Of a stretch of DNA of 20,775 nt, positions 4,239-20,775 are shown in pieces; the stretch's first letter is position 1; each line of letters begins with the position of its first letter. Origin of the DNA: a virus; IMG/VR virus record IMGVR_UViG_3300006735_000335, positions 1-20,775 of that record. One strand, written 5' to 3'. The notes beneath the pieces are model-generated. The model was not told the DNA's origin and did not search any database. It worked only from the letters and a program-made list of their open reading frames with translations. Both the position numbers and the translations under genes were made by a program.

Positions 4239-4693
4239 CAACAACAATTTTTGGAAAGACCCCAGACCCTAAAATAAAAGCTGATATAATTAATACATCA
4301 GACTCTCCAGAAACCTTTGGAGTTAAGTTTCCTTTATTTGATAAAGATAATCCAAACAAGGGTATCTTTGCAACAACTAAAGGTTTTACTTTATTGAAAA
4401 GTGAGGTATCTCAATTCATTAGAACGGAGCGTGGTGAAAGAGTTATGCTTCCTAATTTTGGTTTATCACTTAAGAAGTTTTTATTTGAGCCAATAACTCA
4501 AGATTTAATTGATGCAATCACTGAAGAGATTTATTTTGGTTTTGCTGCCTACTTACCAAAGGTTACTGTGAGAGACGTTAGAATAGAAGAAGGTGACAAT
4601 GTTCATGGTTTGGGTTTGCCAGGAATAAGAATACAAGTGTTGGTTTCACCTTCTAACTCAACACAAACAGGAACCGTGGAGATTACCCTATGA
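4235..4693 (+). CDS. Baseplate wedge protein, gp25/gpW family
   Basis: This 152-aa protein matches the gp25/gpW family, the small sheath-initiating wedge component shared by T4, P2 and related contractile machines. The core reads ERVMLPNFGLSLKKFLFEP (residues 68-86), which corresponds to the family's 'G.R...P.FG..L..LLFEP' signature. It follows a segment in which helices precede a strand (SEVSQFIRTERG) and leads into ITQDLIDAITEEI. The length is slightly above the usual 110-140 aa owing to an N-terminal extension of about 30 residues. The start overlaps the preceding stop as ATGA with only a weak upstream purine run, so translation is probably coupled. It is followed immediately by a gp6/gpJ-like gene, the canonical order in contractile tails. 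Confidence 0.92.
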   Translation: MTTTIFGKTPDPKIKADIINTSDSPETFGVKFPLFDKDNPNKGIFATTKGFTLLKSEVSQFIRTERGERVMLPNFGLSLKKFLFEPITQDLIDAITEEIYFGFAAYLPKVTVRDVRIEEGDNVHGLGLPGIRIQVLVSPSNSTQTGTVEITL

Positions 4694-6300
4694 GCACTAG
4701 AACTTACGAAGAAGCAACAAAAATTCCTTTTACCACAGCAGAGTCTGATTTTCAAAAGTTGCTTGAAACAGGCGATGATTTTGCTAATAAAAAGGAATTA
4801 ATTGATTACGCAGCGACTGATTTTGTAACCCTTAGAGATTCTTTGCTTTCTTATATGAAAGCTGTTTACCCTAACGACTATCAAAACTTCTCTGAGTCTG
4901 ATTTTGGTGTTATGTTTACTGAGCTTGTAGCATATATGGGTTCTGTACTATCCTTTAAGGCAGATGCATTGGCAAATGAAAACTTTCTTTCAACAGCTAA
5001 AAATAGAAACAATGTCAGGAAGCTTTTGGGGTTAATTGGTATTAGATTAAAAGGCCCTACTTCTGCGGGAGCAAATGCTCAGTTAGTTTTAAATGACTCA
5101 ACAAGCAGTAACCTCACGATTACAGCCACCAACCGAGTGTTTTCTTTGACATCACCTATGGATGGCGGTACTTTGCAGTTTACTTTATATAAAACTAGTG
5201 CTGGCAAAGTGGTTGACATGGGTTCAAATACAGCAAACTTATCCTTAGCTACTTCAGAGTCCACCGACCCTACTACGGCTCAAACATGGACGAACTTAGC
5301 TCTCCTTGAGGGCGCTTTAGTCCAAGAAACAGGAGTTTTTAACAGCACTCAAGTATTTAAAACAATTCAACTAACACAAGGCCCAGTAATAGAGAACAGT
5401 GTACAGGTTTTTGTTAATGACACTGGGGCTCTTGGAGGCTCTTACACTCAAGTAGATAATGTTCTTTCTGCTTCTGGACCTACAGATAAGCTTTTTGATG
5501 TTACTTATGATGATAACTTCAACGGTACTGTTCGATTTGGTGATGGTGTAGTTGGTTCTTCGCCCCCTAACTCTTCTGCTTACAGAGTTTTGTACAGAGT
5601 GGGTGGAGGAACAAGAGGAAATCTTCTTGGTGCTACCATTAATGCTCCAATTACAACCAGCGAAGGTGCAGCAACAGTTACAAATACTAGTGTTGCGACA
5701 GGAGGACTAGATGCTGAGACTATTGAAAACGCAAAAAGATACGGTCCACTTGCTTTCAAGCAACAGGATCGTTTAGTAACCTTACAAGATTATCAATCAT
5801 ACGTTTCTAGATACTCTAGCCCTACAGGTGGGCAATCCATTGGAACCGCAGCAACCCGCAAAGCCTACTCTTCCGCTAACATGGTTGATTTATATGTTTT
5901 GCAAAAAGCAAACGACCTTCAATTACAGAAAGCAACTGTTGAATATAAAGTAAATCTTCTTGAGTCTATACAAACCAAAAAGATGCTAACCGATGAGGTT
6001 AATGTTGTTGATGGCTTAATTAGAACTTTAGATTTAGTAACCACAATCTTTTGTGATGAGTCTTTTAGAGACATGGAAGAAAAAATAAAAGTATCGGTTG
6101 CTACAATAATAAGAAATCATTTTTCTTATAGTAATTTTGGTTTTGGTAAATCATTTACTCCACAAGACTTAAACAGATTAATCTATGATATAACTGAGGT
6201 TAGGTACTCAACAGTAGATAACGTCAAAGACCCTGTGGTCGTAAACTTCAATGAAGTAATCCAGTTAAATAACTTAACAATTAATGTAACATTCATATAA
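4690..6300 (+). CDS. Baseplate wedge protein, gp6/gpJ-like (baseplate J family)
   Basis: This 536-aa protein has the hallmarks of baseplate J / T4 gp6 proteins, which form the ring connecting the wedges around the hub. Evidence includes NENFLSTAKNRNNVRKLLGL near residue 97, matching the 'E.fl.TA....n...la..lG' segment. There is also a beta-rich middle with FGDGVVGSSPPNSSAYRVLY and VGGGTRGNLLGATINAP, then DAETIENAKRYGPLAFKQQD near 340 followed by RLVTLQDYQSYV. The C-terminal segment NFGFGKSFTPQDLNRLIYDI resembles the final conserved region. It is longer than P2 gpJ (302 aa) and shorter than T4 gp6 (660 aa). GGAG at 4677-4680 precedes the start, which overlaps the gp25-like stop by four bases. 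The stop overlaps the next start by one base (TAATG). Confidence 0.92.
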   Translation: MSTRTYEEATKIPFTTAESDFQKLLETGDDFANKKELIDYAATDFVTLRDSLLSYMKAVYPNDYQNFSESDFGVMFTELVAYMGSVLSFKADALANENFLSTAKNRNNVRKLLGLIGIRLKGPTSAGANAQLVLNDSTSSNLTITATNRVFSLTSPMDGGTLQFTLYKTSAGKVVDMGSNTANLSLATSESTDPTTAQTWTNLALLEGALVQETGVFNSTQVFKTIQLTQGPVIENSVQVFVNDTGALGGSYTQVDNVLSASGPTDKLFDVTYDDNFNGTVRFGDGVVGSSPPNSSAYRVLYRVGGGTRGNLLGATINAPITTSEGAATVTNTSVATGGLDAETIENAKRYGPLAFKQQDRLVTLQDYQSYVSRYSSPTGGQSIGTAATRKAYSSANMVDLYVLQKANDLQLQKATVEYKVNLLESIQTKKMLTDEVNVVDGLIRTLDLVTTIFCDESFRDMEEKIKVSVATIIRNHFSYSNFGFGKSFTPQDLNRLIYDITEVRYSTVDNVKDPVVVNFNEVIQLNNLTINVTFI

Positions 6301-9300
6301 TGGCTAGGAATTTTTACAAAAGAAATTTTGTTGACGCAGTAAAAATCATTACTCCAAATCTATATTTGGATGATGATTACGATATTAGTGGAGTTCAAGT
6401 AAAGGATACTGATCTACTAATCAATAGTCACATTCTTTCTGCTAAAAATATACAGGAAACCCTGAAGCTTAGTTCTTCTGCATTAACAGGATCTAACCTT
6501 TATAGCTCAATAAACAACATTGATGGCTTCTCACAGTTTTTTGTAAAGCAAAATAAGTTAACGAATATAACCCCAGAGAAGTTTCAAAGAAAAATTCTTA
6601 GACCTATGGGTCAGAAGCTTTCAAGCTTTCAAAGCTCTTCTGATTTTGGTGACTATGTAAGCGGAACATTGTTACCTAAAATATACCTCAATAACACTAA
6701 TATAAAAACTGACACTTCGTCTTACTTCGGTGGCACTCAATTAGAAACAACAGAATATGTAATTAGTAATCTAAACTGGTTGTATTTCTTAAATACGAGT
6801 GCTCCTGCGGGTGGGTCTTTTGCTCCCTCAACGCTTGTTGCATCCTCCATTGTAAATACTCTTTGGAATAATAAACCTTATAGACTTAATGATGCAATAA
6901 AAGACTATCAAACCTATCTGTGGGAGAACTTTGAAGGCTCTTCGGTTCCTTTTGAGTTAATTCCTGATAAGTTCAAGTCTGATACAGGGACATATACTAG
7001 TGGTACTCAAAACTTAAATAAGTTACACACACTTATTGATGTAATTTACTCACCTCTAGCCATAGATCAAGAAGATAAGAGGGTTGAAGAAGCTTTCCAA
7101 ACGTATGTATCTGCAACAACTTTGCTGACCAGCACTGAAGAGGCTGGGCCTTTCCACAAATTCCTTAAAGGGGCATCTTTGGGCATGTACGATGTCAACG
7201 CTCAAGTCGAGGGACTAGGCGATTTAGCTTCGATAGACGATTGCCCAGAAGAATACCTGCCTTTATTGGCTAATTTAATTGGCTGGAAATTGTATGGTAG
7301 GAATGCGGAGTCCTGGAGAAACCAGCTAAAAAATGCACCTAGTATTTATAGAAAAAAGGGTACGAAGCAAGGCATAATAGATTCTTTAAACTCTGTTATC
7401 CCACAGAACCCAATTAATTCAAGTGGTGCTATCACTGAACTTTATGAGTCTTATCTTCCAAATTTAATTTACTATTGCTTGGCAACAGGATCAAATCTTT
7501 TTGATTTCGATACTTATACTCAGGAAGTAGCCTTCTCTCACGGAGCGGATGTCTATAGCCCAACAGATAAGGATTACAATATTCGTGTTGCTGTTGATAA
7601 TATTTTAAGATATTTAGTCGAGGAGAAGGCTGATAATTTTATTGTGCAAAATGAAGCCTTTAGAGTTACACGGCTAGTCACAGGAAAGGCTTGGTTTGGA
7701 CCCGTTATTGAAATTGCTGCCAATGTATGGACAACAGCAGTATACGGAGATCAGGGTGAAGTTCTTTATGATCCAAAGAGCGCCGTAGACGTTGATATTC
7801 TTGCTGACCCTAACTTTGTATTTAATTACAGAAACAGAGATTTTGTTCTTCCACCTTGGGAAGAAGAGAAGTTTTACTCTAATTGTGTAATAGATGATTC
7901 TCTTCTCGCTACACTAAAAACCCTACTGAAGAGCTTTTGTGTTAAGGTTACTTTAATAGATTCTCTTATCGAATATGCTAGGGATTTTGTTATCAAGGGT
8001 AGCACTAACACTGATTTATACATCGGAAACTCCTTTATATTCTATACCTCTGGGCAGCACTATCCTCCAAATCAGGCAGAGGTTTTTGGTCAATACAAAG
8101 AGGACTTATACGACTACTTAACCCTGTGGAATGGTAAATCATCCTTATTTGATTTTACTGTAAGTGGAGGAAACTTTGATGCGGATGTTTTTCAAGATGC
8201 ATCAGGAAGACACACAACAAATGATATCCTACAGTCACTAAGGATTGTAGACGATATGGCTCCTGCAAAGGCGATACCTAGGGTTAGGTTTACTAAAGCC
8301 GCAGCAGAGAGTGCTTCTGGAGCGGACTTCGCATGTCCTTCGGTTAGAGTTGGTTTCACAAACTACGGAACTTCAAATGCAGAGGTTTGTGGTGTTTATA
8401 GTAGAGGACGATACGGAGGACACGGTAGTGAAATTTACCCTGACTTCACGGATAACCTTAAGAGAACCTGGACATCCCACAAAGATAAATCAACATTCAA
8501 ACGATCACAGTTTAATTATCGAGGAGGTCAGTCCCTTTACGCCAGTTCAATTTTTGCTACCGATCAAGTTGTTCCTGTGGCGAGTGGAGTAGGTAGATTC
8601 TCCTTAAGAAGAAGAAACTTTTACAACGCCCTAGATCAAAAAGAATGGTTTAACCGATCAGGAAACAACATGCCTAGTTTCTACAATGCTTTAGGTAATG
8701 TGACAACTTCTAATGCCATCTTTGATTTTGTAAAACTAGGTTTCACTCCAAGCTCTATGGGGTTTGCGCCACCAACACCAGAAAACCTGTCAGGAGTCTA
8801 CAGGCTTGATTGTAGCGGAAGCCTGTCTACCATACCCGATGTTTATTTTGGAGTTGCCTCAAAAAATACTTTCTTATGTAGATCTCACGACACACTTAAC
8901 TTCTCGTCTTGTGATAATTATGTTAGAAGAGATAGAATTCCAGAAGAAGTTAAGCTGTTCTTCGATATTCACGAAGAAAAAAAGAGGAGCATAGCTAGAA
9001 ACATAGTAACTTCTAATCGTAATGCTTTAGCTGCATCAGCAAGTTGGGTAAACTTTGAAAATAGCTTTGCTAATACTATTGAAGATACGGGGTATGAAAA
9101 GTATTATTCTCAAACCTTAAATAGACGTTCTATAAATCAAAAAGGAACAAACTATATTTACAATACTTATGCCACTTACTTTAGTGGAACTAATAACGCT
9201 GGGCTGCCTGAAAATTTAGCTGTCAATTATAGAAAGGGTGGTGCTAATATTCTATCCCATACATACGGACCAATTTACAGAAACTCAGCATTTAATTATG

Positions 9301-12300
9301 ATGGGTCAGCATTAGAGGTAAGCTCTCAGTTTATAAACAAAAGCATTATTGATCCCTTCTTAATTAACTTAGCTGCCAGTGCATCAGTAATATCAAACAA
9401 GATTGGTTTGAACACCGTTAACTCTGAAACGAGCCTTAATCTTGGAGGAGCAGCAGAGCACTCTACAAAGCACATCTTAAGCGGTATTAACTTCATAGAC
9501 ACATCCACCGCTACGTTAACTCCCACAAATCAGTTCGGTATTTTTGATTTAGTTCCTCAAGACTCAGGGCTTGTGGGGAGACCATCATACTTAGAAAACA
9601 ATAGGACTGTTTTGATGAGGTCTAGAAGCCATGGATTACCTAGACTGAGGTATGGATTAAGAGGTTCTGATGAGAAAAACGTCTTGGTTCCTGAATCGGA
9701 GTACAGTCTAACTTTAAATTACTTGACAGGTCGAGATAACTCCAGCTTCATAGGTGGTGGAAGTGTTGGAGTTTTACTACACACTAAGAGAGAGATTGAT
9801 AGTGATGGTTCTGGTGTATGTTTTGTTTGGAATAAAAATAGTGAGTGGGAGCAAGTATATGTTTCAGACTTGCAATCAGATACTTCTAGAGAGTTAATTT
9901 TAAATAAGTATGTGCATTTCTTCTCAGACGAGATCAGAAATGAGGGTGAAAGAATAGGAGCTTGTGGAGACGATGAAAGCTTAAATGGTTTACAGGCGAT
10001 AACAGCAGAATCTTTCTCCCAGGCATCTATTAAGTTTCACACAATAAACGCAAAGACAACTACGACTAGTAAGTACGCTACAAACTTTGTGGCATCTCTA
10101 AGTAGTGTATACAATGGTGAAAGCGTTCAAGTGCATAAAGCATCAATTAGTGACGCTAACAGATCGCAAAACTATTTCGTTAATGTTTTAGCAGCACCCA
10201 CGACAACTTTCTCAGATAGGTTTGTTTTAGTAGACTCTATTGATATGGTTAACGAAACTTTAAATAATGCAGCAAAAGTTCCATACAAAGCAACAATACC
10301 CGATACATCAAAGTCAGGAGAAACATACGAGTCTGTGACCATACTACGTCCTAATGGACTAGAGTTACAGGGTTTACCTGACATACAACAACCACTTAAT
10401 GATAGTAACTTAATGGTTCCTAGCGACAATGAGTTATCGTTAGCTGCTACGAATCAGTCCTACTTGTTTAATGTTCCTCCAGACTTGGCTTTAAATTACA
10501 GAACCACCTCTCTGCCTTTTTACTTATCTCTATATCCTCCTGGTGGGGGCTTGCTTTGGAATAATATTGGACAGTATTACACATATCCATACACAGGAAT
10601 GCAAAACGAGTATTACACAAACAGTAAAAGAGGTTGGAATTCTGATTTCTTCAGGGCTTCACTCCTGAATGCAGGGTTGAGTATTTATCAAATTAGAGAT
10701 TGGTTTAGAACAGAATACCTAGGGTCTCGTAGTATTAATTTAGGATCAAGGCCATTCTTGCCAACTGAAACCCCAGACAAACAGTACAGAACATTTGGCT
10801 CCGTAAATAGATGGTGTGATTTAATTTGGGATACGCAACAAAGTTTGAAGTTTAATAGTGGTGTTGTTGAGACCGATAGAAATAAAGATCGTTATGGGTT
10901 CCTTCAACCAACAAAAATTATCTTCGATGATACTACAAATGTTGGATTAAGAAACGGTATTGTACCTCCTGATACAATGAAGAATCCCTTAGGCTATACA
11001 GTCCAAGAGGATACGTTGGCTCCAATAGGGACAGACAGCACAATAAATCAATTACTTCCCGTTGGAACTCCAATACAAAGTACTTTTCATAGTAGGCGTT
11101 TTAACAACGAGTATGATGCTTCTCCTCATCAAACCGATCAATTTTTAAATGAGGTCATAGAAAGACCTTTAGGTAAATATTCAACAGGTACAATGTTAGA
11201 CGCTTACCCAGGACTAATTAACGACTTGAATGTTATTAACAAGGTAAACTATGGACTAAGCTTAGAGCAAAACTTTGGTGGAGATAGCTCTTTGGTTCGT
11301 GATTTCAACTTAGATAAGCACAGACCTGTTCCAGGTTATTATCAAGATGTACCAGCAAGGGATCTTTTAAACGAGCAAACATATTCTTTCTCTGTTTACT
11401 TAGCAAGACCTCACGATATTACTTCAATGGAAGGACCTCTTGCTGAACCTCCTTTGGATGATTATTCCGATAAAGCCACTTCTGCAATGATTACCTTGGC
11501 ACCTTTAGATTCTAATAGCAGTTACGTCAGACTAAATATTAATTTAAATACTGAAGCATCCTCTATACAGAAAGGCGGTAGAGGTTCGGACTTAGCTGAT
11601 TCCATTGCTGCTACCTGTGAAAAGGTGCCTTATACGGTTGACGGTCAGACCTTAACATGGTACAAACTAAAGGTTACCTTAACTTACGATGCTACTGAAA
11701 AATCAGATACTTATGATCTTGATCAAGACCTTTGGGATGAGTGTTTATCACAAGATAGTAGACTCGCCAATGACGGGCTAAGGTGTTCGGTTTTTGCTTA
11801 TAATGATCAATATGATAATGCATTACCTACGGCGGCAGGAAATGAGGTAATTGATATATCCTCCAGAGTCATGCTTTGGGGACCTTCTTTAGTAAAAGGA
11901 ACAGCGGCTGGGTATTGGGAGAGAGCTACAGAACTGCTTCCACACCCTACAATTCCTGCACAAGAAATAGAAACAATTGTATATAACGTAGTAGGAAATA
12001 TTTTAGATATAGGTGATCCTACTAGAAAACGCACACTTTTCCAAGATGATGATTTTAATTTGTCTTACATTTCAGAGGACACTGAGAAGTTAGAGAAACT
12101 CACCGTAGCCATTCCAAGTCCAGGAAGCCTTGTATCTCCAACAACTTTATACACTAAACCTTTCCTGTATGACAATAAACAAAAATTACATTCAGGGCCT
12201 ATTTACTATGATTTAGCAAGAAAATTATTGCGTGGTGATATTTATGCAGCAGATGGTGATCAAACCAATCAGGATAAATTTTTAACAGTTAGTGGTGGAG

Positions 12301-12566
12301 GCAAAGGCACCTTTATTACAAAGGAGATTGAATCAACCTTTAGAATTAAACCTCGACAACTTTTACATCTGTTTAGGTACTTTAATAACTTGGGGCAGGT
12401 AGATAAAGGCGAGGGTTTCTTAACTAGAGTACCTTCCGACTCAGCAGCAATGCACAATGTAAGCGGTGGGAGTCGAGTTGCTTATAGGTCTCACCCAGAT
12501 AACGATACCATAGGAACATCGTCAACAGATTACCACAGCTTTTCTAACATAAATATTATAGGATAA
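6300..12566 (+). CDS. Giant baseplate wedge protein with P2 gpI-type domain (2088 aa)
   Basis: At 2088 residues this is the largest gene. Residues about 304-367 carry the phage tail protein I signature: EEYLPLLANLIGWKLYG, then ESWRNQLKNAPSIYRKKGTK and IIDSLNSVI. This matches the 'lp.LA..lgvd.W...w....kr..i..a...yr.KGT' core of P2 gpI, which links wedge to fibre. P2 gpI is about 180 aa and T4 gp7 about 1030 aa, so most of this protein is extra. A second recognisable part at about 1690-1880 runs from TYSFSVYLARP to RVMLWGPSLVKG and resembles the carbohydrate-binding-type jelly roll common in phage fibres. The last 70 residues (FRIKPRQLLHLFRYFNN onward) look like a separate C-terminal module. 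The middle is Ser/Asn/Tyr-rich and unassigned. It lies in canonical position after gp25- and gp6-like genes. The start is in a TAATG overlap with no strong ribosome site. Confidence 0.82.
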   Translation: MARNFYKRNFVDAVKIITPNLYLDDDYDISGVQVKDTDLLINSHILSAKNIQETLKLSSSALTGSNLYSSINNIDGFSQFFVKQNKLTNITPEKFQRKILRPMGQKLSSFQSSSDFGDYVSGTLLPKIYLNNTNIKTDTSSYFGGTQLETTEYVISNLNWLYFLNTSAPAGGSFAPSTLVASSIVNTLWNNKPYRLNDAIKDYQTYLWENFEGSSVPFELIPDKFKSDTGTYTSGTQNLNKLHTLIDVIYSPLAIDQEDKRVEEAFQTYVSATTLLTSTEEAGPFHKFLKGASLGMYDVNAQVEGLGDLASIDDCPEEYLPLLANLIGWKLYGRNAESWRNQLKNAPSIYRKKGTKQGIIDSLNSVIPQNPINSSGAITELYESYLPNLIYYCLATGSNLFDFDTYTQEVAFSHGADVYSPTDKDYNIRVAVDNILRYLVEEKADNFIVQNEAFRVTRLVTGKAWFGPVIEIAANVWTTAVYGDQGEVLYDPKSAVDVDILADPNFVFNYRNRDFVLPPWEEEKFYSNCVIDDSLLATLKTLLKSFCVKVTLIDSLIEYARDFVIKGSTNTDLYIGNSFIFYTSGQHYPPNQAEVFGQYKEDLYDYLTLWNGKSSLFDFTVSGGNFDADVFQDASGRHTTNDILQSLRIVDDMAPAKAIPRVRFTKAAAESASGADFACPSVRVGFTNYGTSNAEVCGVYSRGRYGGHGSEIYPDFTDNLKRTWTSHKDKSTFKRSQFNYRGGQSLYASSIFATDQVVPVASGVGRFSLRRRNFYNALDQKEWFNRSGNNMPSFYNALGNVTTSNAIFDFVKLGFTPSSMGFAPPTPENLSGVYRLDCSGSLSTIPDVYFGVASKNTFLCRSHDTLNFSSCDNYVRRDRIPEEVKLFFDIHEEKKRSIARNIVTSNRNALAASASWVNFENSFANTIEDTGYEKYYSQTLNRRSINQKGTNYIYNTYATYFSGTNNAGLPENLAVNYRKGGANILSHTYGPIYRNSAFNYDGSALEVSSQFINKSIIDPFLINLAASASVISNKIGLNTVNSETSLNLGGAAEHSTKHILSGINFIDTSTATLTPTNQFGIFDLVPQDSGLVGRPSYLENNRTVLMRSRSHGLPRLRYGLRGSDEKNVLVPESEYSLTLNYLTGRDNSSFIGGGSVGVLLHTKREIDSDGSGVCFVWNKNSEWEQVYVSDLQSDTSRELILNKYVHFFSDEIRNEGERIGACGDDESLNGLQAITAESFSQASIKFHTINAKTTTTSKYATNFVASLSSVYNGESVQVHKASISDANRSQNYFVNVLAAPTTTFSDRFVLVDSIDMVNETLNNAAKVPYKATIPDTSKSGETYESVTILRPNGLELQGLPDIQQPLNDSNLMVPSDNELSLAATNQSYLFNVPPDLALNYRTTSLPFYLSLYPPGGGLLWNNIGQYYTYPYTGMQNEYYTNSKRGWNSDFFRASLLNAGLSIYQIRDWFRTEYLGSRSINLGSRPFLPTETPDKQYRTFGSVNRWCDLIWDTQQSLKFNSGVVETDRNKDRYGFLQPTKIIFDDTTNVGLRNGIVPPDTMKNPLGYTVQEDTLAPIGTDSTINQLLPVGTPIQSTFHSRRFNNEYDASPHQTDQFLNEVIERPLGKYSTGTMLDAYPGLINDLNVINKVNYGLSLEQNFGGDSSLVRDFNLDKHRPVPGYYQDVPARDLLNEQTYSFSVYLARPHDITSMEGPLAEPPLDDYSDKATSAMITLAPLDSNSSYVRLNINLNTEASSIQKGGRGSDLADSIAATCEKVPYTVDGQTLTWYKLKVTLTYDATEKSDTYDLDQDLWDECLSQDSRLANDGLRCSVFAYNDQYDNALPTAAGNEVIDISSRVMLWGPSLVKGTAAGYWERATELLPHPTIPAQEIETIVYNVVGNILDIGDPTRKRTLFQDDDFNLSYISEDTEKLEKLTVAIPSPGSLVSPTTLYTKPFLYDNKQKLHSGPIYYDLARKLLRGDIYAADGDQTNQDKFLTVSGGGKGTFITKEIESTFRIKPRQLLHLFRYFNNLGQVDKGEGFLTRVPSDSAAMHNVSGGSRVAYRSHPDNDTIGTSSTDYHSFSNINIIG

Positions 12567-14527
12567 TGAGAGGATCAGTAGAAATTTATAGCGGTTATGG
12601 AACCGAGAACCAAGAACTAGTTCTTAAAGAAGATAATTTAGTTGTTGATGGGGCTGGTGAAGCAATCTGTGATATGCTAACCACAGCCTCTGGATCTATA
12701 TCTGGTGTGTCTAACTCAAGTAGCACGTTAACCGATGCATCTAATTTTACTATTAGAGCTTTTTCCATGGGCAAAGGTCAGAAATCCTATCAACGACACG
12801 GACACTTTTTTCCCAAAGATTCCTCCTCTTATACTTTTCCTACAGTAGGCGACTATCACGGGTATGTTAATCTAGTCAGAAAAGATACTAGAGTTAGAGT
12901 TGTGTCTTATGTGGACGAAAATATCACATGGACTGTAAAATCTTTTGACCCTGTAAACGATCCAGGATTAGCTCCCCGTCCTGTTGATACCTCTCTTGAG
13001 CGTGATACTAGAACTGCTATCGACAGAACTTTAGATCAAGCACATAAGATGAATGGGGATTACATGGCAGGTAGGGCACACGCTTTTGGACACAACCTTA
13101 ATAGGATTATGTCTAACACAAACCCAAACTTAATGTCTTATACTGTAGATCCTCTAGATGCAAACTTAGGTGATGATTTTTGGACCTCTGCGAACTTATC
13201 TAACTTTAATGTTTCTTCTCTGCATAGCGGCCCTTTTTACGGAACCTCTGCCTTACATCTGTCTGGAAGTAATAACAGCAACCACTTAATTAGACAGAGG
13301 GCTTATCTGTCACCTTACGGTAGAGCAAAAAGATACTTTCATGAGAACTTAGACCATACCTTTAGTGTATACACTCGAATGCCTGATGATATAGACAAGG
13401 CCCCAGCGACTCTTGTTATGAATATACGGGCAACAACTCAAGCAGGAACGGTAAAAGCTAATAATGTAGGAACATTCACTAAAACTGGAGGAGCTTCAGG
13501 TATACCAGCACACTTTGTTTTTAGCACAGGAACAAATGGTATAAAAGGTGACGTTGAAACCTTAGAGGTAGGCTCTACTAGTTCTCATGTTGGGTGGCAA
13601 AGGCTTCATCTTAGACTAGAGGGTTTAGGGTCTGGAGGTGTTAACACTGTTGGAAATAGATTAAACTATGTTGATCCTGTGGTTTATTTTACAGGGTCAA
13701 CGAATACATCAAGAAAAGAGATGTATCATTATGGGTATCAGCTTGAAGAGAGCTTCGGTCCAACCGAGTATCAGTCCGTATCAGGTATCAGACCTACCCT
13801 TAACGAAGGTGGTATAAGTGGGGATACTTTCCTCGGCTGTTATCCTGATGTTAGCGGAACTAGGTGGGCAATTTTAAATTCCATTAGTGGAGTTGATTCC
13901 ACAAACTCCACTGATAAGGTGATTATTAGTGGTATTTATCCAGATGTAACCAATGATGGAGCAGCCTATAGAACCTTTTTTAACTGTTCCGCAGTCAGAG
14001 CCATGGATCAAAATGGTTTTATCAAAGTTCATGATGCTTCTACTCCTTTAGGAATGAGGTTTGATGATGAGCATGGTAATGATGGATCAGCTATTTATAC
14101 TAGTGGGGTAAAGAATCTACAAACTTCAGGTATGAAGATGTCTGTGGGTACTCTAGGATCTCCTGGAGACTTTTCCTCAACAGGAGAAGTCTCATATACT
14201 TGTACAATTTCTTCTGGAGATCTGGGTTTAGCTAACCTATACGGAGGAGTATTTAAATTAGGGTTATGGACAATAGATTTGCCTAATACCATGCAAGGAA
14301 ATTATGGACATTATCATGATGGAAAGTTTAGCCCTATAAATAAGGTAAAATATCCTGCCCAGCCACCTTTCAACTTTAAAGCTGGCTTTAATAGAATAGT
14401 ATATAAATTATTCTGTGAGAAGAGTCTGACGCTAAACTTAGGTAGAGTAAAAGATAATGGTAGTGATTCAGGCTCACTATTAGGACATCAAGATCTAACA
14501 GTTGTTTGGAAGTTAAAATTCATATGA
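12566..14527 (+). CDS. Tail fibre / baseplate-appended protein with carbohydrate-binding-like insert (653 aa)
   Basis: The first ~60 residues (MRGSVEIYSGYG, then EDNLVVDGAGEAICDML) and the last ~90 (YGGVFKLGLWTID to LTVVWKLKFI) resemble the two ends of the attachment domain found whole in the next two genes. The rest therefore looks like an insertion within that fold. Within the insert, about residues 262-405 show HTFSVYTRMP, a strand near WQRLHLRLEG and MYHYGYQLEESFGPTEYQ. This matches the 'y.fSvy.k ... W.r...t ... y.wGaQLEeG..ptsY' layout of carbohydrate-binding-type modules in phage fibres. A second beta-rich stretch follows (SAVRAMDQNGFIKVHD). It has no catalytic motif, signal peptide or collagen-type repeat that I can see. 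Start and stop overlap the neighbours by one and four bases. Most likely it is a receptor-binding or fibre-linking protein; the exact role is unproven. Confidence 0.7.
   Translation: MRGSVEIYSGYGTENQELVLKEDNLVVDGAGEAICDMLTTASGSISGVSNSSSTLTDASNFTIRAFSMGKGQKSYQRHGHFFPKDSSSYTFPTVGDYHGYVNLVRKDTRVRVVSYVDENITWTVKSFDPVNDPGLAPRPVDTSLERDTRTAIDRTLDQAHKMNGDYMAGRAHAFGHNLNRIMSNTNPNLMSYTVDPLDANLGDDFWTSANLSNFNVSSLHSGPFYGTSALHLSGSNNSNHLIRQRAYLSPYGRAKRYFHENLDHTFSVYTRMPDDIDKAPATLVMNIRATTQAGTVKANNVGTFTKTGGASGIPAHFVFSTGTNGIKGDVETLEVGSTSSHVGWQRLHLRLEGLGSGGVNTVGNRLNYVDPVVYFTGSTNTSRKEMYHYGYQLEESFGPTEYQSVSGIRPTLNEGGISGDTFLGCYPDVSGTRWAILNSISGVDSTNSTDKVIISGIYPDVTNDGAAYRTFFNCSAVRAMDQNGFIKVHDASTPLGMRFDDEHGNDGSAIYTSGVKNLQTSGMKMSVGTLGSPGDFSSTGEVSYTCTISSGDLGLANLYGGVFKLGLWTIDLPNTMQGNYGHYHDGKFSPINKVKYPAQPPFNFKAGFNRIVYKLFCEKSLTLNLGRVKDNGSDSGSLLGHQDLTVVWKLKFI
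13886..13912. repeat. Short inverted repeat inside the 653-aa fibre gene
   Basis: AGTGGAGTT at 13886-13894 is the exact reverse complement of AACTCCACT at 13904-13912, with a nine-base spacer. It lies within coding sequence and is not followed by a T-run, so it is not a convincing terminator. It may be chance or an mRNA hairpin. Confidence 0.35.
14166..14193. repeat. Strong intragenic hairpin (12-bp arms, 4-base loop)
   Basis: GAGACTTTTCCT (14166-14177) pairs with AGGAGAAGTCTC (14182-14193) across the loop CAAC. Eleven pairs are Watson-Crick and one would be a G-U wobble in RNA. It sits inside the 653-aa fibre gene, about 330 bases before the sulfatase start. No T-tract follows, so intrinsic termination is unlikely; effects on mRNA stability or translation are possible but unproven. 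Confidence 0.45.
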
Positions 14528-17500
14528 GAGGTATCGTAACAATAAAAAAAGTTTTCTCTGATGGAAGAGAAGAAGTAGTAGCCACTGATGACAATGTAAT
14601 TAGTGTTGGCTTGGCCGAATCTTTTGTTAATCTTTTTTCCAATAATCTTGCTGGAAACACTTCAAATGTTCTTGCTGGGTATTTTCAGGTGGGAGATGGA
14701 GATCACTTAATAGATGGTATTGATGGAGACACCAAGAAATATGTTTACTCCTTAGCTAATCCTTTTGTAGAATCTGATTACGGAGCATCAACCACAGCGG
14801 AGATAGATGTTCACAATCAAGTGTACGGAATTAAAGGGAACTTTGTTCCTGATGGGCCTACGGTTACTCTTCGTGGAGCATTCGTTAATTTACCTGATGA
14901 GTTTAGCACCAAAGTAACTGATGATTCTGTTTATTACAGATTAAACATAGGTGAGAAGGTAGCAAACGGAAAAAGCTTAAATGAGTTTGGTTTGTTTAGC
15001 CGTAACCCTGCTGGCAATAAAAAAGAACGCTCTGTTATGATTGCATACAAATCTTTAGATGCCCCCATAACTAAGAGTGAATTATTTTCTGTTGTAATTG
15101 ATTGGCAACTTAAGTTTATTGATGAAGTTGAAGAGATTGGCACAACTACTCCTTTAGAGAGTGACGCTCCAGGGGAAGGCTTTAATGTTGTTTTAATTAT
15201 GGCTGATGATTTAGGCATTGATCAACTGGGGATGTACGATGATATGAATTTCTACGATCTCTCTAGTCCTCAGAATGCAAATGCTATCCCGCAAAATAGT
15301 CACGAACAGCCCACAAACGGTAGCAGTATCTATCCGCAGTGCCCAATTTTAAGCTCCTTAGCATCAAAAGGTATAACCTTTAAAAATGCACATGCCAATG
15401 CTATGTGTACACCAACCAGAGCTAACATCCTTACAGGGAAACACGCATTTAGTAGTCCTAAGTTTGCTTGGGAAGATGAAAATGGTGATATACTTTACAA
15501 AGGGATGTGGGGAACAGGCATTGGTAGTGTGGCAACACAAAACTTTCAAAAACTAAGAGGTGGGATTAAAGGATTAGGGAGAAGGTATGTGTATAAAAAC
15601 GAAGAGGGTGATCCAACCTTCCCTGAGTTAGATATTTTAGGTGGGGATGCAACTGATCAGGAGCGGGATACTTGGTATTCTACATGGACTAACAAAGAAT
15701 TTATAGTACCTAACGGATATCCAAATGCGGGATTCGTGGTACAACCTAACTTTACTATTCTTCCTGATATACTTAGAGACACCGACTACGTTCCTAATGC
15801 TTATAAAAGTGCCATGTGTGGAAAATGGCACTTAGCTGAGTGGGATGGGTTATATGTTTATAGTGAGGAAGGTGTTAAAGCAAAAGGAAATGGGTGGAAA
15901 CATATCAGAACTGTAGGCAGGTTTGATAAGGTTAGAGCCATGTTCCACAATTTAAATAAAACTCCAATCCCTGGGCATAATGGAGATACTCCCAACCTTA
16001 CCTATACAGGAGCATGGACTGATGGCTTAGGAGGTGAACACCAAAGGTATTATGATCTTTCGGACACCAATATGGGGTACGTTAATTATTTCCAGTATAA
16101 GTATGATGACTACACTTCTGATGCAAGCACCCTCATAACGGTTTCAGACACAGGCTACACTACATTTAAGTTTAATGCCAGCGCCCAAGCTGCTGGTTCC
16201 ACAGGGGCCGATAACCCATACTTCCAAGGAGATGCTAGTTCTTACGCAACAAATAAAACTTTTGCAGATGCCAGCAGTTTATTTGATACATTAGAAGAGC
16301 CTTTTTTCTTGTATGTTCCACTTAACACTCCACACAGTCCATACACTTACCCACCTTCGGGTTACTCCTATAGTAATTTTTATAATAATAACCACGCTCA
16401 GAAGCAGTACACCTCTGGGGTAGGTGATACAATATCAAACTATAGTTGGATTAATCAAAATGCCATGATAGAAAACATGGACTTCATGTTAGGTGAGTTT
16501 TTAGAGAAGATTAACCCAGCAAGAAGTCGCAGAACCCTGTTTGTCTTCATGGGAGATAACGGATCAGATGGTAGTATAATGCAGAGCTACTATAATTTTT
16601 CAAAGCAAATGGGCAATACTGCTAGTGGGATTGGAAAGTTCTATAGGCTAGGATTATTTCCAGAGGAGTTTACTAACGCAGATAAGTTAGGGTTTGATGA
16701 TGCGAACGGTATAGGTGGACAATACCAATACCTAGACGTATCAGCAGGTAGAGGAGGTAACGATAATAGTCCAAGTAGATTTAAGTCTTCTGTTTATGAC
16801 AGAGGAACTACTATTCCGTTTATTGTTAGCTCTTCTTTTATCCCATCTAACCTTCAAGGAAGTTCTTGTAGTGCCTTTGTTGACACTGTTGATTTGTATT
16901 CTACAATAACAGATATTGCAGGTATTAAATCTCAGGATTTACCAAAGAATCAAAAATATTTCAATGATGGAATATCGTTTATGCCTTTGTTGAGAGGTCA
17001 AGTTAATGCATCTAGTCACGGAAGACAGTTTAGTTATTGTGAAGTTTTTAGACCTTATGGAAACTCAGCAGGGGGTGTAACGAACACTGGAACCCACTCT
17101 GGTCAAATTGGTGATTACAGAGCTACTAATGCCGATAATTATCCTTGGACTGAAGCAAATAACTACGGCCTAACCACAGAAGCTGATGCTAGTGGTGTAG
17201 GAAATCCAACAATACCTTTCGAAAGAAGGCGCGGATTCTTATTACGTCAAACAAGAACTCAGTTCGGTAATCAACAAATACCTGATTACATGTTTGATGA
17301 GGCGGGTTTAGATAGATCAACAGCAGTATATGGAGATGTTCCAGAGTTGAGCGGAGGCTGCTGGAGATTGGTTAGACCCACTAGTGGTCCTTATTATGAT
17401 GAATTATATCATACTAGAAATACCAACTTCTCAGGCATTGATCTTTTAGAAGTGATTGATCAAATCCCAGAATCATTGAAAGGAAAAACGGATTCAGGGT

Positions 17501-17757
17501 TAGCAGGACACTTAACCGTTGAGATGTTAAAGATCGCTGGAGCCGCAGGAATACAAAACTTAAATAATAAATGGTGGATTTTAGCCAGAATATACACAAA
17601 AATGTCACAGTCGCTAAGTAACTACTTACGATTCCGCACTCCGCTGACAACTACAGTAAATACAGGGTACGAAGATTCTCCTGAAGATGAGGCAAGACTA
17701 GCAATACCGTCACCGAGAGAGACTGGAAATCGTAGCTCTGATTTAGGAGAACTTTAA
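14524..17757 (+). CDS. Virion-associated sulfatase fused to a baseplate-attachment domain (1077 aa)
   Basis: Residues 1-199 form an attachment domain homologous to the next gene product, sharing NEFGLFSRNPAG and ending in DWQLKFI. Residues about 221-900 form a type I (formylglycine) sulfatase. NVVLIMADDLG supplies the metal ligands Asp228 and Asp229. CTPTRANILTGK places the modified Cys at 295 and Arg at 299. GKWHL gives Lys434 and His436, NTPHSP gives His604, and FMGDNG gives Asp678 and Asn679. Lys754 precedes YDRGTTIPFIV, and VDTVDLYSTITDIAG matches the conserved helix. The family hydrolyses sulfate esters; related phosphonate or phosphate esterases share CxPxR, so the substrate is unknown. 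There is no signal peptide. I chose ATG 14524, which overlaps the upstream stop as ATGA and aligns with the paralogous MRG start. An in-frame ATG at 14506 would add six residues. Display on the tail is inferred from fusion and context. Confidence 0.9.
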   Translation: MRGIVTIKKVFSDGREEVVATDDNVISVGLAESFVNLFSNNLAGNTSNVLAGYFQVGDGDHLIDGIDGDTKKYVYSLANPFVESDYGASTTAEIDVHNQVYGIKGNFVPDGPTVTLRGAFVNLPDEFSTKVTDDSVYYRLNIGEKVANGKSLNEFGLFSRNPAGNKKERSVMIAYKSLDAPITKSELFSVVIDWQLKFIDEVEEIGTTTPLESDAPGEGFNVVLIMADDLGIDQLGMYDDMNFYDLSSPQNANAIPQNSHEQPTNGSSIYPQCPILSSLASKGITFKNAHANAMCTPTRANILTGKHAFSSPKFAWEDENGDILYKGMWGTGIGSVATQNFQKLRGGIKGLGRRYVYKNEEGDPTFPELDILGGDATDQERDTWYSTWTNKEFIVPNGYPNAGFVVQPNFTILPDILRDTDYVPNAYKSAMCGKWHLAEWDGLYVYSEEGVKAKGNGWKHIRTVGRFDKVRAMFHNLNKTPIPGHNGDTPNLTYTGAWTDGLGGEHQRYYDLSDTNMGYVNYFQYKYDDYTSDASTLITVSDTGYTTFKFNASAQAAGSTGADNPYFQGDASSYATNKTFADASSLFDTLEEPFFLYVPLNTPHSPYTYPPSGYSYSNFYNNNHAQKQYTSGVGDTISNYSWINQNAMIENMDFMLGEFLEKINPARSRRTLFVFMGDNGSDGSIMQSYYNFSKQMGNTASGIGKFYRLGLFPEEFTNADKLGFDDANGIGGQYQYLDVSAGRGGNDNSPSRFKSSVYDRGTTIPFIVSSSFIPSNLQGSSCSAFVDTVDLYSTITDIAGIKSQDLPKNQKYFNDGISFMPLLRGQVNASSHGRQFSYCEVFRPYGNSAGGVTNTGTHSGQIGDYRATNADNYPWTEANNYGLTTEADASGVGNPTIPFERRRGFLLRQTRTQFGNQQIPDYMFDEAGLDRSTAVYGDVPELSGGCWRLVRPTSGPYYDELYHTRNTNFSGIDLLEVIDQIPESLKGKTDSGLAGHLTVEMLKIAGAAGIQNLNNKWWILARIYTKMSQSLSNYLRFRTPLTTTVNTGYEDSPEDEARLAIPSPRETGNRSSDLGEL
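17745..17750 (+). promoter_or_regulatory. Ribosome binding site for the 191-aa attachment-domain protein
   Basis: AGGAGA lies nine bases before ATG 17760, within the last codons of the sulfatase gene. It is the best-matched Shine-Dalgarno of the fibre block, suggesting independent and efficient initiation of the small downstream protein. Confidence 0.65.
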
Positions 17758-17759
17758 TC

Positions 17760-18335
17760 ATGGAAAAAGTAAAAGCAAAAGGAAATTTAGAAGTTTGGAA
17801 AGTTTATGATGATGGAACCGAAGAGTTACATTTTTCTGAACAAAACGTAATTACCTCTGGGATGGGCGTGGGCCTAGCACACCTTTTTTCAGGATCAGGC
17901 TCAGGAGACATTGGTGATTTTCAAATAGTTAATTTCCAGTTAGGTACTGCTGGAGACGTAAATAACTATGGTGTTTCTTCTTTTAAGTTAAACACAGCAG
18001 TATCAAAAGCAAATATACAAACAACAGGCAGTGAGCTATTAGTTGAAGATCTTTTTCCAATCGAAAATGGTGTAGTTTTAGGATCAACAAAACCGTTTGT
18101 TAGAATACCTTTTTCTAACATTCAAAAAGTAACAGCAACTTCTGTTAGATTTAATTTAATCGTAGACAAAAACTCTGCGGTGGACCAGACCATAAATGAG
18201 ATTGGTCTTTTTATGAGAAACCCCAGAGGATCGGCATCTGACCCACATCCCATATTAGTTGCTTACCGACCATTCACTAGTTTAACCAAAACTAGCACCT
18301 TTTCACTACTATTTAAGTGGACTATTAGTTTTTAA
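17760..18335 (+). CDS. Free-standing attachment-domain protein (191 aa), paralogue of the sulfatase N-terminus
   Basis: The whole protein corresponds to residues 1-199 of the sulfatase fusion. Shared features in order are a GNLEVWKVYDDGTEEL start (compare GIVTIKKVFSDGREEV), a QNVITSGMGVGLAHLFSG segment and a Gly/Asp-rich region near residue 60. These are followed by VRFNLIVDK, INEIGLFMRNPRG, LVAYRPF and a final FKWTISF. It has no catalytic motif, signal peptide or membrane segment. The layout suggests a beta-sandwich adaptor of the baseplate or fibre base. It follows the sulfatase by two bases and has its own strong ribosome site. It ends in TAA, with one AAA codon between it and the next ATG in the same frame, so it abuts the beta-helix fibre. 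It probably links that adhesin to the baseplate or fills equivalent sites; this is inference. Confidence 0.75.
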   Translation: MEKVKAKGNLEVWKVYDDGTEELHFSEQNVITSGMGVGLAHLFSGSGSGDIGDFQIVNFQLGTAGDVNNYGVSSFKLNTAVSKANIQTTGSELLVEDLFPIENGVVLGSTKPFVRIPFSNIQKVTATSVRFNLIVDKNSAVDQTINEIGLFMRNPRGSASDPHPILVAYRPFTSLTKTSTFSLLFKWTISF

Positions 18336-18338
18336 AAA

Positions 18339-20775
18339 ATGCCATTTGACCCAACAGACCTTTATTCAGCAAGCGCAGGAACAAAGCTTTCTAATTATTT
18401 TAACCCTTTTGTTACGAAGTTTGATAGCCAATCGTTCTACAATTTTGAACAAGACAACGAGCCCCTCTTTGATTTAGAGGAGAGGACACATTATCTTTGG
18501 GAGAAAGCAACAGGTTTTGCTACCTCCTCCCTGGCTGGAATGCCTTTAGTTGTTTCTGGTTCTTTAGCAACGGATAACCCTAATGTTTTCACAAGTGTTC
18601 AAGACGCTATTGATGCTCTACCTAACGTAATTATAACACCTACACTAATTGAAGTTGCCGCATCAGGTGAATTGGGAGGGTTAGATCTACAAAACATTGA
18701 AGTTAAGGGTGATGGGGTTTTAGAAATCATTAACCGTGGGCATGCCAAAATTTATACAGGTGCTGGAAACCATAACTTTACCTCAGTAGTTGAAACAAGC
18801 TCTATCGGTTATGGTCATGGTAGTAACACGGGATTAAACTTAAGAGGTGTTATTAATAATTTATCATCTATTGATCTCTCGACAACTATCACTAATACTG
18901 CTGTTGCAAGTTTGTATGGCAAAGGAGCAGATGTTTTCTGCGTAAGTTCCTTGTTTACAAACAATAGATACCATAGAACCTTCGTTCAGTACATGAACTT
19001 GCAACCCACAACAGGCAGAAGAAATGACATAGTTACTTGTGGGTTTATTGGTGAGTCATCAAATACAATTGAATTTTTAAAGCATACAGGATTGTTTAAC
19101 CTTCCTGGATTTGAAAGAGCCACTTACGGAATCTCAACTAATAACATTAGCGATCCAACAATTGTTGAAGGGTACGATGTATCTTGCTTCAGGTCTGACG
19201 TTCTTAGGGCTGATAACAAGCGTTTCCCTAATGGAAATGTTGCTTTCATTAACAGAAATGGAAGTATGACAAACTCAGGAACTTTCGACCAAGTGGGTGG
19301 AAATACTTACGCAAACACATTATCCTCCATAAGCGTTGAGAATTGCAACGGACCTATTTACATTCGAGGTTTCTGTGTTGATGGCGTTCGAGGTGCTGAT
19401 ACTGCATACGGAAACTCACCTTATCATGCTAGAACAGGCATCTCTGTTAAGAACTCTAATATTGATCTTGAGAACTGTGCAGCAATGAGATCCATAGAAA
19501 ACGGAGCGGAGTTTATTAACTCAGATGTTACGTTGAGTCGAGGATTCTTTGCATACAGAAACTATGAGATTGTTAGTTCCGCTAGGGCGGGATATGAAAC
19601 AGCAGGGATTAGAGCTTCGAATAGCCGAATAAATCTAAAACCATCTCTGTACTATGCCTCAGGCGTTGATTATAACTTTAACACGCAAGCGCACACCTAT
19701 GGTGCCATTTTAGATAACTGCGTTGTTACTGGAGGTCAAAGTAGACCAACAGCAAATAGTTTTGAAACAACTCTAGGTTTTTCTTATAATGACATTGGTA
19801 TTAAAGCAGACAACACCATTTTTGATGTTAGTGGAAATTTAGATGTCTACAACAATAATAAAGGTTTAGTTTTAAATAATAGTAGGGTTTCATCCGATAG
19901 GCTGACTGTAGAAAACAACAATGATGAAGGTATCTTAGCTAATAACTCTCAAATTATTTACAATAATACCTATACAAGGAACACCTACATTAATGATGTA
20001 AGTGGTGCTAGAACTGCTCAGACACTTCTACAGAGAAATGGAGTCCACATGCATCTAATGAACTCCAGTAAGTTCTCTCATGATTTAGCTGTAAGCTCCT
20101 CTAACATAGGAGTTAAGTTCGGTCTTTTAAAGTTCCACGATTCTCATGGAACAGTAAACCCAGGAACAAACGCAACTAGGTTTAATATTCCAGGTGTATT
20201 GATTGATAACTCAGAAGCTAACATTATTAATGCAAGATTGTCTACAAGCGCATTAGCCTACAACCAGACAGGAGTATTAGGTGGCTGCATCCATGCTAAT
20301 AATGGTTCTCAAGTTAACTTTATGGGATCTGTTTCAGGAACAACAATCCTAGCAGGGCCAGCAAATGATAACACAATTAGAGCCACAGCCGCATACGCCG
20401 ACAACGGATCTAAATTAAGCTTTAGGGGTCCTACAGTAATTGGACAATTTGGAAATGGTGTTGTCGCTAACAATAACTCCACTGCTGAATTTTGCCCACA
20501 CAAAAAAGGCAATGCTGAATTAGACATTGAAGGCTTTAATTTAACTAGCCCTTACAATCATACATCCGTAGAGATTCACACTAATTTCCACAGTTGTATT
20601 GTTGCAAATAATAATTCTCAAGTTATCTTGGAGGATTTAGGTCATCCCAACTCATATGTTTCTGCTGCTGGAGGAGGTTCGCTATTCGCAAATTCTGATT
20701 CGCCAGCCACACTAGCCAGTTATACTAGCGCAGGTTCCATGCAGTTTTATCCTAACCCATCTAAAACAACTTTAG
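18339..20775 (+). CDS. Parallel beta-helix tail fibre / tailspike (3' partial, at least 812 aa)
   Basis: The frame opens at ATG 18339 and stays open to the right edge, so at least 812 residues are present and the C-terminus is missing. Residues 1-75 look like a particle-binding head, with LFDLEERTHYLWEKATGF at 43-60 then GMPLVVSG. VFTSVQDAIDALP (83-95) and the following Ile/Val strands are the usual entry into a pectate-lyase-like right-handed beta-helix. From about residue 366 to 770 a repeated rung motif appears, roughly G-I/V-x-A-x-N-x-S followed by an alternating strand. Examples are GIRASNSRINL, GIKADNTIFDV, GILANNSQIIY and CIVANNNSQVIL, implying Asn/Ser ladders. A depolymerase active site cannot be assigned from sequence. 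There is no Shine-Dalgarno before the start; it lies three bases after the previous stop and in the same frame. It is probably the receptor-binding or glycan-cleaving spike. Confidence 0.85.
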   Translation, partial: MPFDPTDLYSASAGTKLSNYFNPFVTKFDSQSFYNFEQDNEPLFDLEERTHYLWEKATGFATSSLAGMPLVVSGSLATDNPNVFTSVQDAIDALPNVIITPTLIEVAASGELGGLDLQNIEVKGDGVLEIINRGHAKIYTGAGNHNFTSVVETSSIGYGHGSNTGLNLRGVINNLSSIDLSTTITNTAVASLYGKGADVFCVSSLFTNNRYHRTFVQYMNLQPTTGRRNDIVTCGFIGESSNTIEFLKHTGLFNLPGFERATYGISTNNISDPTIVEGYDVSCFRSDVLRADNKRFPNGNVAFINRNGSMTNSGTFDQVGGNTYANTLSSISVENCNGPIYIRGFCVDGVRGADTAYGNSPYHARTGISVKNSNIDLENCAAMRSIENGAEFINSDVTLSRGFFAYRNYEIVSSARAGYETAGIRASNSRINLKPSLYYASGVDYNFNTQAHTYGAILDNCVVTGGQSRPTANSFETTLGFSYNDIGIKADNTIFDVSGNLDVYNNNKGLVLNNSRVSSDRLTVENNNDEGILANNSQIIYNNTYTRNTYINDVSGARTAQTLLQRNGVHMHLMNSSKFSHDLAVSSSNIGVKFGLLKFHDSHGTVNPGTNATRFNIPGVLIDNSEANIINARLSTSALAYNQTGVLGGCIHANNGSQVNFMGSVSGTTILAGPANDNTIRATAAYADNGSKLSFRGPTVIGQFGNGVVANNNSTAEFCPHKKGNAELDIEGFNLTSPYNHTSVEIHTNFHSCIVANNNSQVILEDLGHPNSYVSAAGGGSLFANSDSPATLASYTSAGSMQFYPNPSKTTL

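Follow-up and report, generated by a model that had tools for sequence, protein, structure and literature searches.

A conserved gene fusion places a predicted formylglycine-type sulfatase in the tail module of T4-superfamily phages

Lyases, glycosidases, deacetylases and esterases are the kinds of enzyme with which phages are known to attack surface sugars. The stretch of DNA analysed here (an IMG/VR viral fragment of 20,775 bases, hereafter the window) carries among its tail genes one that a first-pass annotation, made from the letters alone, had read as a sulfatase built into the tail apparatus, raising the questions of whether the product really is a sulfatase, whether it travels on the virion and what it might do there. 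Start, length (1,077 residues) and coordinates of the reading frame all proved to be as that annotation gave them, and the gene and its surroundings are laid out as follows.

4235–4693, + strand: gp25-like baseplate wedge protein
4690–6300, + strand: baseplate J/gp6-like wedge protein, with 31 relatives in IMG/VR
6300–12566, + strand: 2,088-residue tail protein with a Tail_P2_I-like segment
12566–14527, + strand: fib1, a protein of fibre type; its first ~43 residues are similar to the N-terminal domain of the sulfatase protein
14524–17757, + strand: fusion of a tail-type domain with an S1 formylglycine-type sulfatase, 1,077 residues
14524–15120, + strand: N-terminal domain of the fusion, residues 1–199, paralogous to 17760–18335 and to the start of 12566–14527; PHROG 5417 (unknown function)
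15166–17661, + strand: sulfatase domain, about residues 215–1046, with an alkaline-phosphatase-superfamily fold that includes the C-terminal subdomain
17760–18335, + strand: fib2, a stand-alone copy of the N-terminal domain
18339–20775, + strand: long repetitive protein, beta-helix-like as judged from its sequence, cut by the window end; conserved as a neighbour wherever a relative extends this far

The baseplate setting was borne out, with the gp25-like and baseplate J/gp6-like genes and the Tail_P2_I segment all lying upstream of the sulfatase gene, whose ATG overlaps the stop codon of fib1 (ATGA). Two further proteins precede this block: one of 402 residues (350–1558) that matches baseplate hub and tail lysozyme families weakly and is probably the tail spike tip, and one of 889 residues (1569–4238), conserved before the gp25-like gene in relatives, that has a weak LamG-like segment below the cut-off and is possibly a further glycan-binding part.

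The fusion begins with the domain of about 199 residues that had been described as common to the neighbouring fibre genes, and the comparisons agree: fib2 is 28% identical to it (E = 2e-16), while the first ~43 residues of fib1 match its profile (E = 2e-4; hhalign 92.6%), so that paralogues flank the sulfatase gene on both sides. A search of the PDB with this domain gave zero matches and, because it has no relative of known structure, we infer its role, which is probably attachment, from the paralogues and the gene order. The absence of a signal peptide also held, as neither a signal-peptide-like N-terminus nor an N-terminal hydrophobic stretch was seen in the protein.

What follows this domain belongs to the Pfam Sulfatase family, against which a HMMER check had been proposed: the match to PF00884 lies far above chance, scoring 86.8 bits where the cut-off is 25 (E = 2.2e-24). 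A phmmer search retrieves solved sulfatases, a PDB profile search returns solved sulfatases throughout (E down to 1e-21) and NCBIfam gives sulfatase-family matches, all of them sub-threshold. The top profile and fold matches disagree on the S1 subfamily (S1_16, S1_19, 4-sulfatase). All nine residues that the first-pass annotation had named as the active site stand exactly where it put them, and their predicted roles, with those of their neighbours, are these.

15205–15210, + strand: Asp228-Asp229, predicted metal ligands
15406–15420, + strand: C295-T-P-T-R299, predicted formylglycine site and its arginine; AMCTPTRANILTG, an exact PS00523 match
15823–15831, + strand: Lys434-Trp-His436, predicted formylglycine-binding residues
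16333–16335, + strand: His604, predicted sulfate binding
16555–16560, + strand: Asp678-Asn679, predicted metal ligands; Asn as in classical sulfatases, where phosphonate monoester hydrolases (PMHs) have His
16783–16785, + strand: Lys754, predicted sulfate binding

In the second signature region, GKWH is kept in all rows of the phage alignment; the literal PS00149 pattern is matched by the most distant relative (L158) only and not by the window protein, and the PROSITE sulfatase patterns have been described as no longer fully correct (PMC5066984). The catalytic columns of the phage proteins coincide with those of 109 bacterial sulfatases. On this evidence, an intact sulfatase is very probably what the gene encodes.

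Membership of the alkaline phosphatase superfamily is also compatible with a phosphodiesterase or a phosphonate/phosphate monoester hydrolase whose targets would be surface polymers resembling teichoic acids or phosphoglycans, a reading that gains from a weak NCBIfam match to PehA (phosphoric/sulfuric ester hydrolase) and from the promiscuity of formylglycine enzymes (PMC12421950). The residues speak against it. The sulfatases PAS and ASA share the set Asp-Asp-Asp-Asn, Arg, Lys, His, His, Lys, from which PMH departs at four positions (Table 2, PMC4014121), and the window protein reproduces that set with zero exceptions (D228, D229, D678, N679; R299, K434, H436, H604, K754). Asn or His as the fourth ligand marks the divide between sulfatase and PMH (PMC12421950); in place of the PMH features—His as fourth metal ligand, Tyr and Thr at the Lys and His positions (Tyr105 and Thr107)—the phage protein has Asn679, Lys434 and His436, alongside the second Asp. 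These comparisons support a predicted active site of classical sulfatase type rather than PMH type, and leave the phosphoesterase reading very improbable.

Relatives were gathered through the baseplate J protein (31 in IMG/VR) and, for others, through sulfatase alignments; all are incomplete metagenomic fragments. They hold 10 distinct homologues besides the window protein and, in every contig long enough, the order is fib1, the fusion of N-terminal domain and sulfatase, fib2 and the beta-helix-like gene, with zero counter-examples; contigs that end early inside the sulfatase gene have the N-terminal part only. Fusion in 10 other distinct homologues, with an identical copy in a second contig, rules out chance or a single-assembly artefact.

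None of the nine catalytic residues varies across the 12 aligned rows (11 distinct sequences), nor do Pro297, Thr298 and Arg299, while the sulfatase core of the window protein is only 34–43% identical to the other rows. Estimates of dN/dS for three pairs run from 0.06 to 0.20, of which the direction alone is safe as dS is saturated in two, and purifying selection on the active site across this phage lineage is thus supported. Such constancy bears on whether the fold has been reused as a lectin-like receptor-binding module, which would bind a sulfated glycan with no turnover and no need of maturation. A tail context would suit a binder, as would the dependence of formylglycine on a host enzyme when none is encoded on the contigs, but a pure binder is expected to drop its nucleophile and metal ligands in some lineage, whereas here the nine residues and CxPxR with its arginine are invariant at that low identity; we regard the lectin-like reading as improbable.

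Within the main clade, identity is 34–39% for the sulfatase, 41–46% for fib1 and 61–67% for baseplate J, so divergence of the sulfatase equals or exceeds that of fib1 and far outpaces that of baseplate J, a pattern to be expected if the protein faces the host. The most distant relative, L158 (48% in baseplate J), keeps the gene order. Between its N-terminal domain and sulfatase lies an insertion of ~470–500 residues (L158:6477–7976, residues ~206–705) with an alpha/beta-hydrolase-like look (VVAFDY...NVIVAGNGFGSTLAGYLA) but with Gly at the position of the nucleophile Ser, and without a match in Pfam or the PDB. Two other members (L043:9424–13593 and L044:10001–14068) have an insertion of ~300 residues inside the sulfatase, in the loop after the Lys/His motif and following GKWHLANWEDEVIYSEE, which has no match in Pfam and may reshape the substrate cleft.

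Structure prediction recovered the alkaline-phosphatase-superfamily core that the first-pass annotation had implied. AlphaFold run without bacterial sulfatases in the alignment gave a pLDDT of 31; once 109 bacterial sulfatases were included, it folded the core (pTM 0.77) in a model that depends on those homologues and so agrees with the sequence homology without being independent of it. Compared with solved carrageenan, 4-S and arylsulfatases, this model scores Z 28–32 over about 400 residues, matching across residues ~218–1046. The fold thus extends to about residue 1046, well beyond the Pfam match, and the span of the match indicates that the C-terminal 200 residues form the usual sulfatase subdomain. 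Significant matches in a viral structure library were giant-virus proteins, with no phage among them.

Is the enzyme, then, part of the particle? An auxiliary, non-virion enzyme might instead be made during infection or released at lysis, freeing sulfate or sugars for the host or loosening envelope or matrix; many auxiliary genes occur in marine phages, and sulfatases are typical of algal-polysaccharide degraders. Against this stand the lack of a signal peptide, the joining of the enzyme to a domain that recurs in the tail genes beside it, and the ATGA overlap with fib1 together with a conserved place within the tail module, whereas the sulfatases of other viral contigs (L163 and L164) are separate genes with a hydrophobic start. 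We therefore rate the auxiliary role as unlikely, though less so than the lectin-like one, and predict with good confidence that the sulfatase is a virion component.

Activity would require maturation. The formylglycine-generating enzyme (FGE) family PF03781 was found in none of 12 related contigs, nor in the Pfam scan of the sulfatase protein, and radical-SAM maturase families were absent from the contigs searched, all of which are incomplete. With no such maturase detected on any contig, the host would have to supply the formylglycine. The cysteine is converted while the chain is still unfolded, with [CS]xPxR as the directing motif (PMC5066984), so a cytosolic host FGE could act before virion assembly.

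Conserved catalytic residues in a tail-module fusion suggest that these phages desulfate the sugar coat of the cells they infect, and the best reading of the locus, which we favour without regarding it as secure, is a sulfatase that is matured by the host, travels on the virion and attacks a sulfated glycan of a surface or matrix. The protein would be synthesised in the host cytoplasm, where a host FGE would turn Cys295 into formylglycine, and would be docked to the baseplate or fibre assembly by its N-terminal domain, departing with the tail when the cell lyses. On meeting another cell, it would bind sulfate-bearing residues of a glycan in the surface or matrix, where the formylglycine hydrate and the metal coordinated by D228, D229, D678 and N679 would hydrolyse the sulfate ester, either clearing a way through the layer for the fibre and beta-helix-like proteins encoded next to it or making binding reversible. 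A part for the enzyme in infection, through action on a sulfated glycan, is somewhat favoured by this evidence, and the data fit a host-surface glycan and an environmental matrix glycan alike as target. More tentatively, the FGE of the previous host might decide whether a virion carries an active or a dead sulfatase, with desulfation of a bacterial surface or marine gel as an entry step: a host-licensed tail enzyme that, if true, would be a phage–host glycan interaction without precedent in the literature searched.

The carriers are uncultured T4-superfamily myoviruses without a named close relative. On a 75 kb contig (G003), the tail module with the sulfatase is bracketed by bona fide T4-type genes, the contig encoding a T4-superfamily tail sheath, major head protein, portal, head protease, terminase and helicase. 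The closest records are remote: major capsid and portal proteins are about 34% identical to those of a 595 kb uncultured genome (LR756511.1) and otherwise about 30% identical to others. Although its baseplate genes make that genome the nearest record to share this set, it has no PF00884 match. From their T4/cyanophage-like affinity and from dataset numbers that we take to denote a marine origin, the carriers are apparently marine. A search for hosts found no tRNAs on the larger contigs and no genome with the phage gene among the GTDB matches listed.

A contaminating bacterial gene is ruled out, as phage tail genes bracket the sulfatase on all contigs. In a tree with bacterial sulfatases, for which the bacterial sample was restricted to loci chosen by two motifs, the phage proteins group into a single clade (SH-aLRT 100); its stem is long, and no bacterial sister has support. 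The two-motif scan of 84,980 GTDB genomes kept 80 loci, all ordinary bacterial sulfatases of low identity (best E 6e-12) and none as close to the window protein as its phage homologues. One old acquisition of the sulfatase by phages would be the simplest reading of these sequences.

Compared with known S1 sulfatases (PF00884; PAS 1HDH, S1_16 9FO1 and the S1_19 carrageenan sulfatases 9HH2/6B0J), the phage protein shares the fold, CxPxR and the metal- and sulfate-binding residues, but is only about 12–25% identical to the solved members, lacks a signal peptide, is fused to a tail-type domain, carries long insertions in some relatives and belongs to that separate, long-stemmed clade. Its likeness to phage tail depolymerases, tailspikes and tail-borne deacetylases or esterases lies in the inferred use, virion-borne modification of surface glycans, whereas the predicted chemistry is sulfate-ester hydrolysis through a host-made formylglycine and the fold is not a beta-helix trimer. 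With the FGE-sulfatase-domain proteins of phage diversity-generating retroelements (PF03781) it has only the word 'sulfatase' and a tail role in common, as that fold, absent here, is a maturase/C-type lectin and not a sulfatase (PMC12724379, PMC11318856).

The lack of a described precedent, as the first-pass annotation had surmised, is matched by our searches. A full-text literature search, outside which lie subscription papers and preprints, so that absence is not proof, turned up no sulfatase carried on a tail; where phage papers use the word 'sulfatase', they mean the FGE-fold retroelement target (PMC12724379, PMC11318856), an FGE gene of Pseudoalteromonas phages (PMC10232697) or host genes. 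In INPHARED, tblastn with the window protein gave no match and with one homologue (L037) only fecal scaffolds (E at least 0.003); no verified phage sulfatase was found there, the other matches being unverified fecal scaffolds and Salmonella and Acinetobacter records. One candidate, the sulfatase of 'Campylobacter phage A11a' (MG065691.1, L165), was rejected as identical to E. coli yidJ within a 52.5% GC stretch of E. coli chromosome, apparently contamination; A18a (MG065686.1) has the same yidJ match. If true, a tail-borne sulfatase conserved in a phage lineage would add sulfate removal to the phage glycan enzymes, would imply that this group meets a real barrier in sulfated surface or matrix glycans and would be a tail enzyme whose activity depends on a host-made modification.

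Other PF00884-type genes occur on IMG/VR contigs, in PHROG 19870 (unknown function) and on L163 and L164; these are separate genes with a hydrophobic, secretion-like start and no fusion to a tail domain. On the two GC-rich contigs (L163:7224–8480 and L164:7086–8456), the stand-alone sulfatases lie beside long repetitive, possibly tail-related genes; that of L163 retains the main active-site motifs and, if the contigs are phage, the pair represents an independent kind of phage sulfatase.
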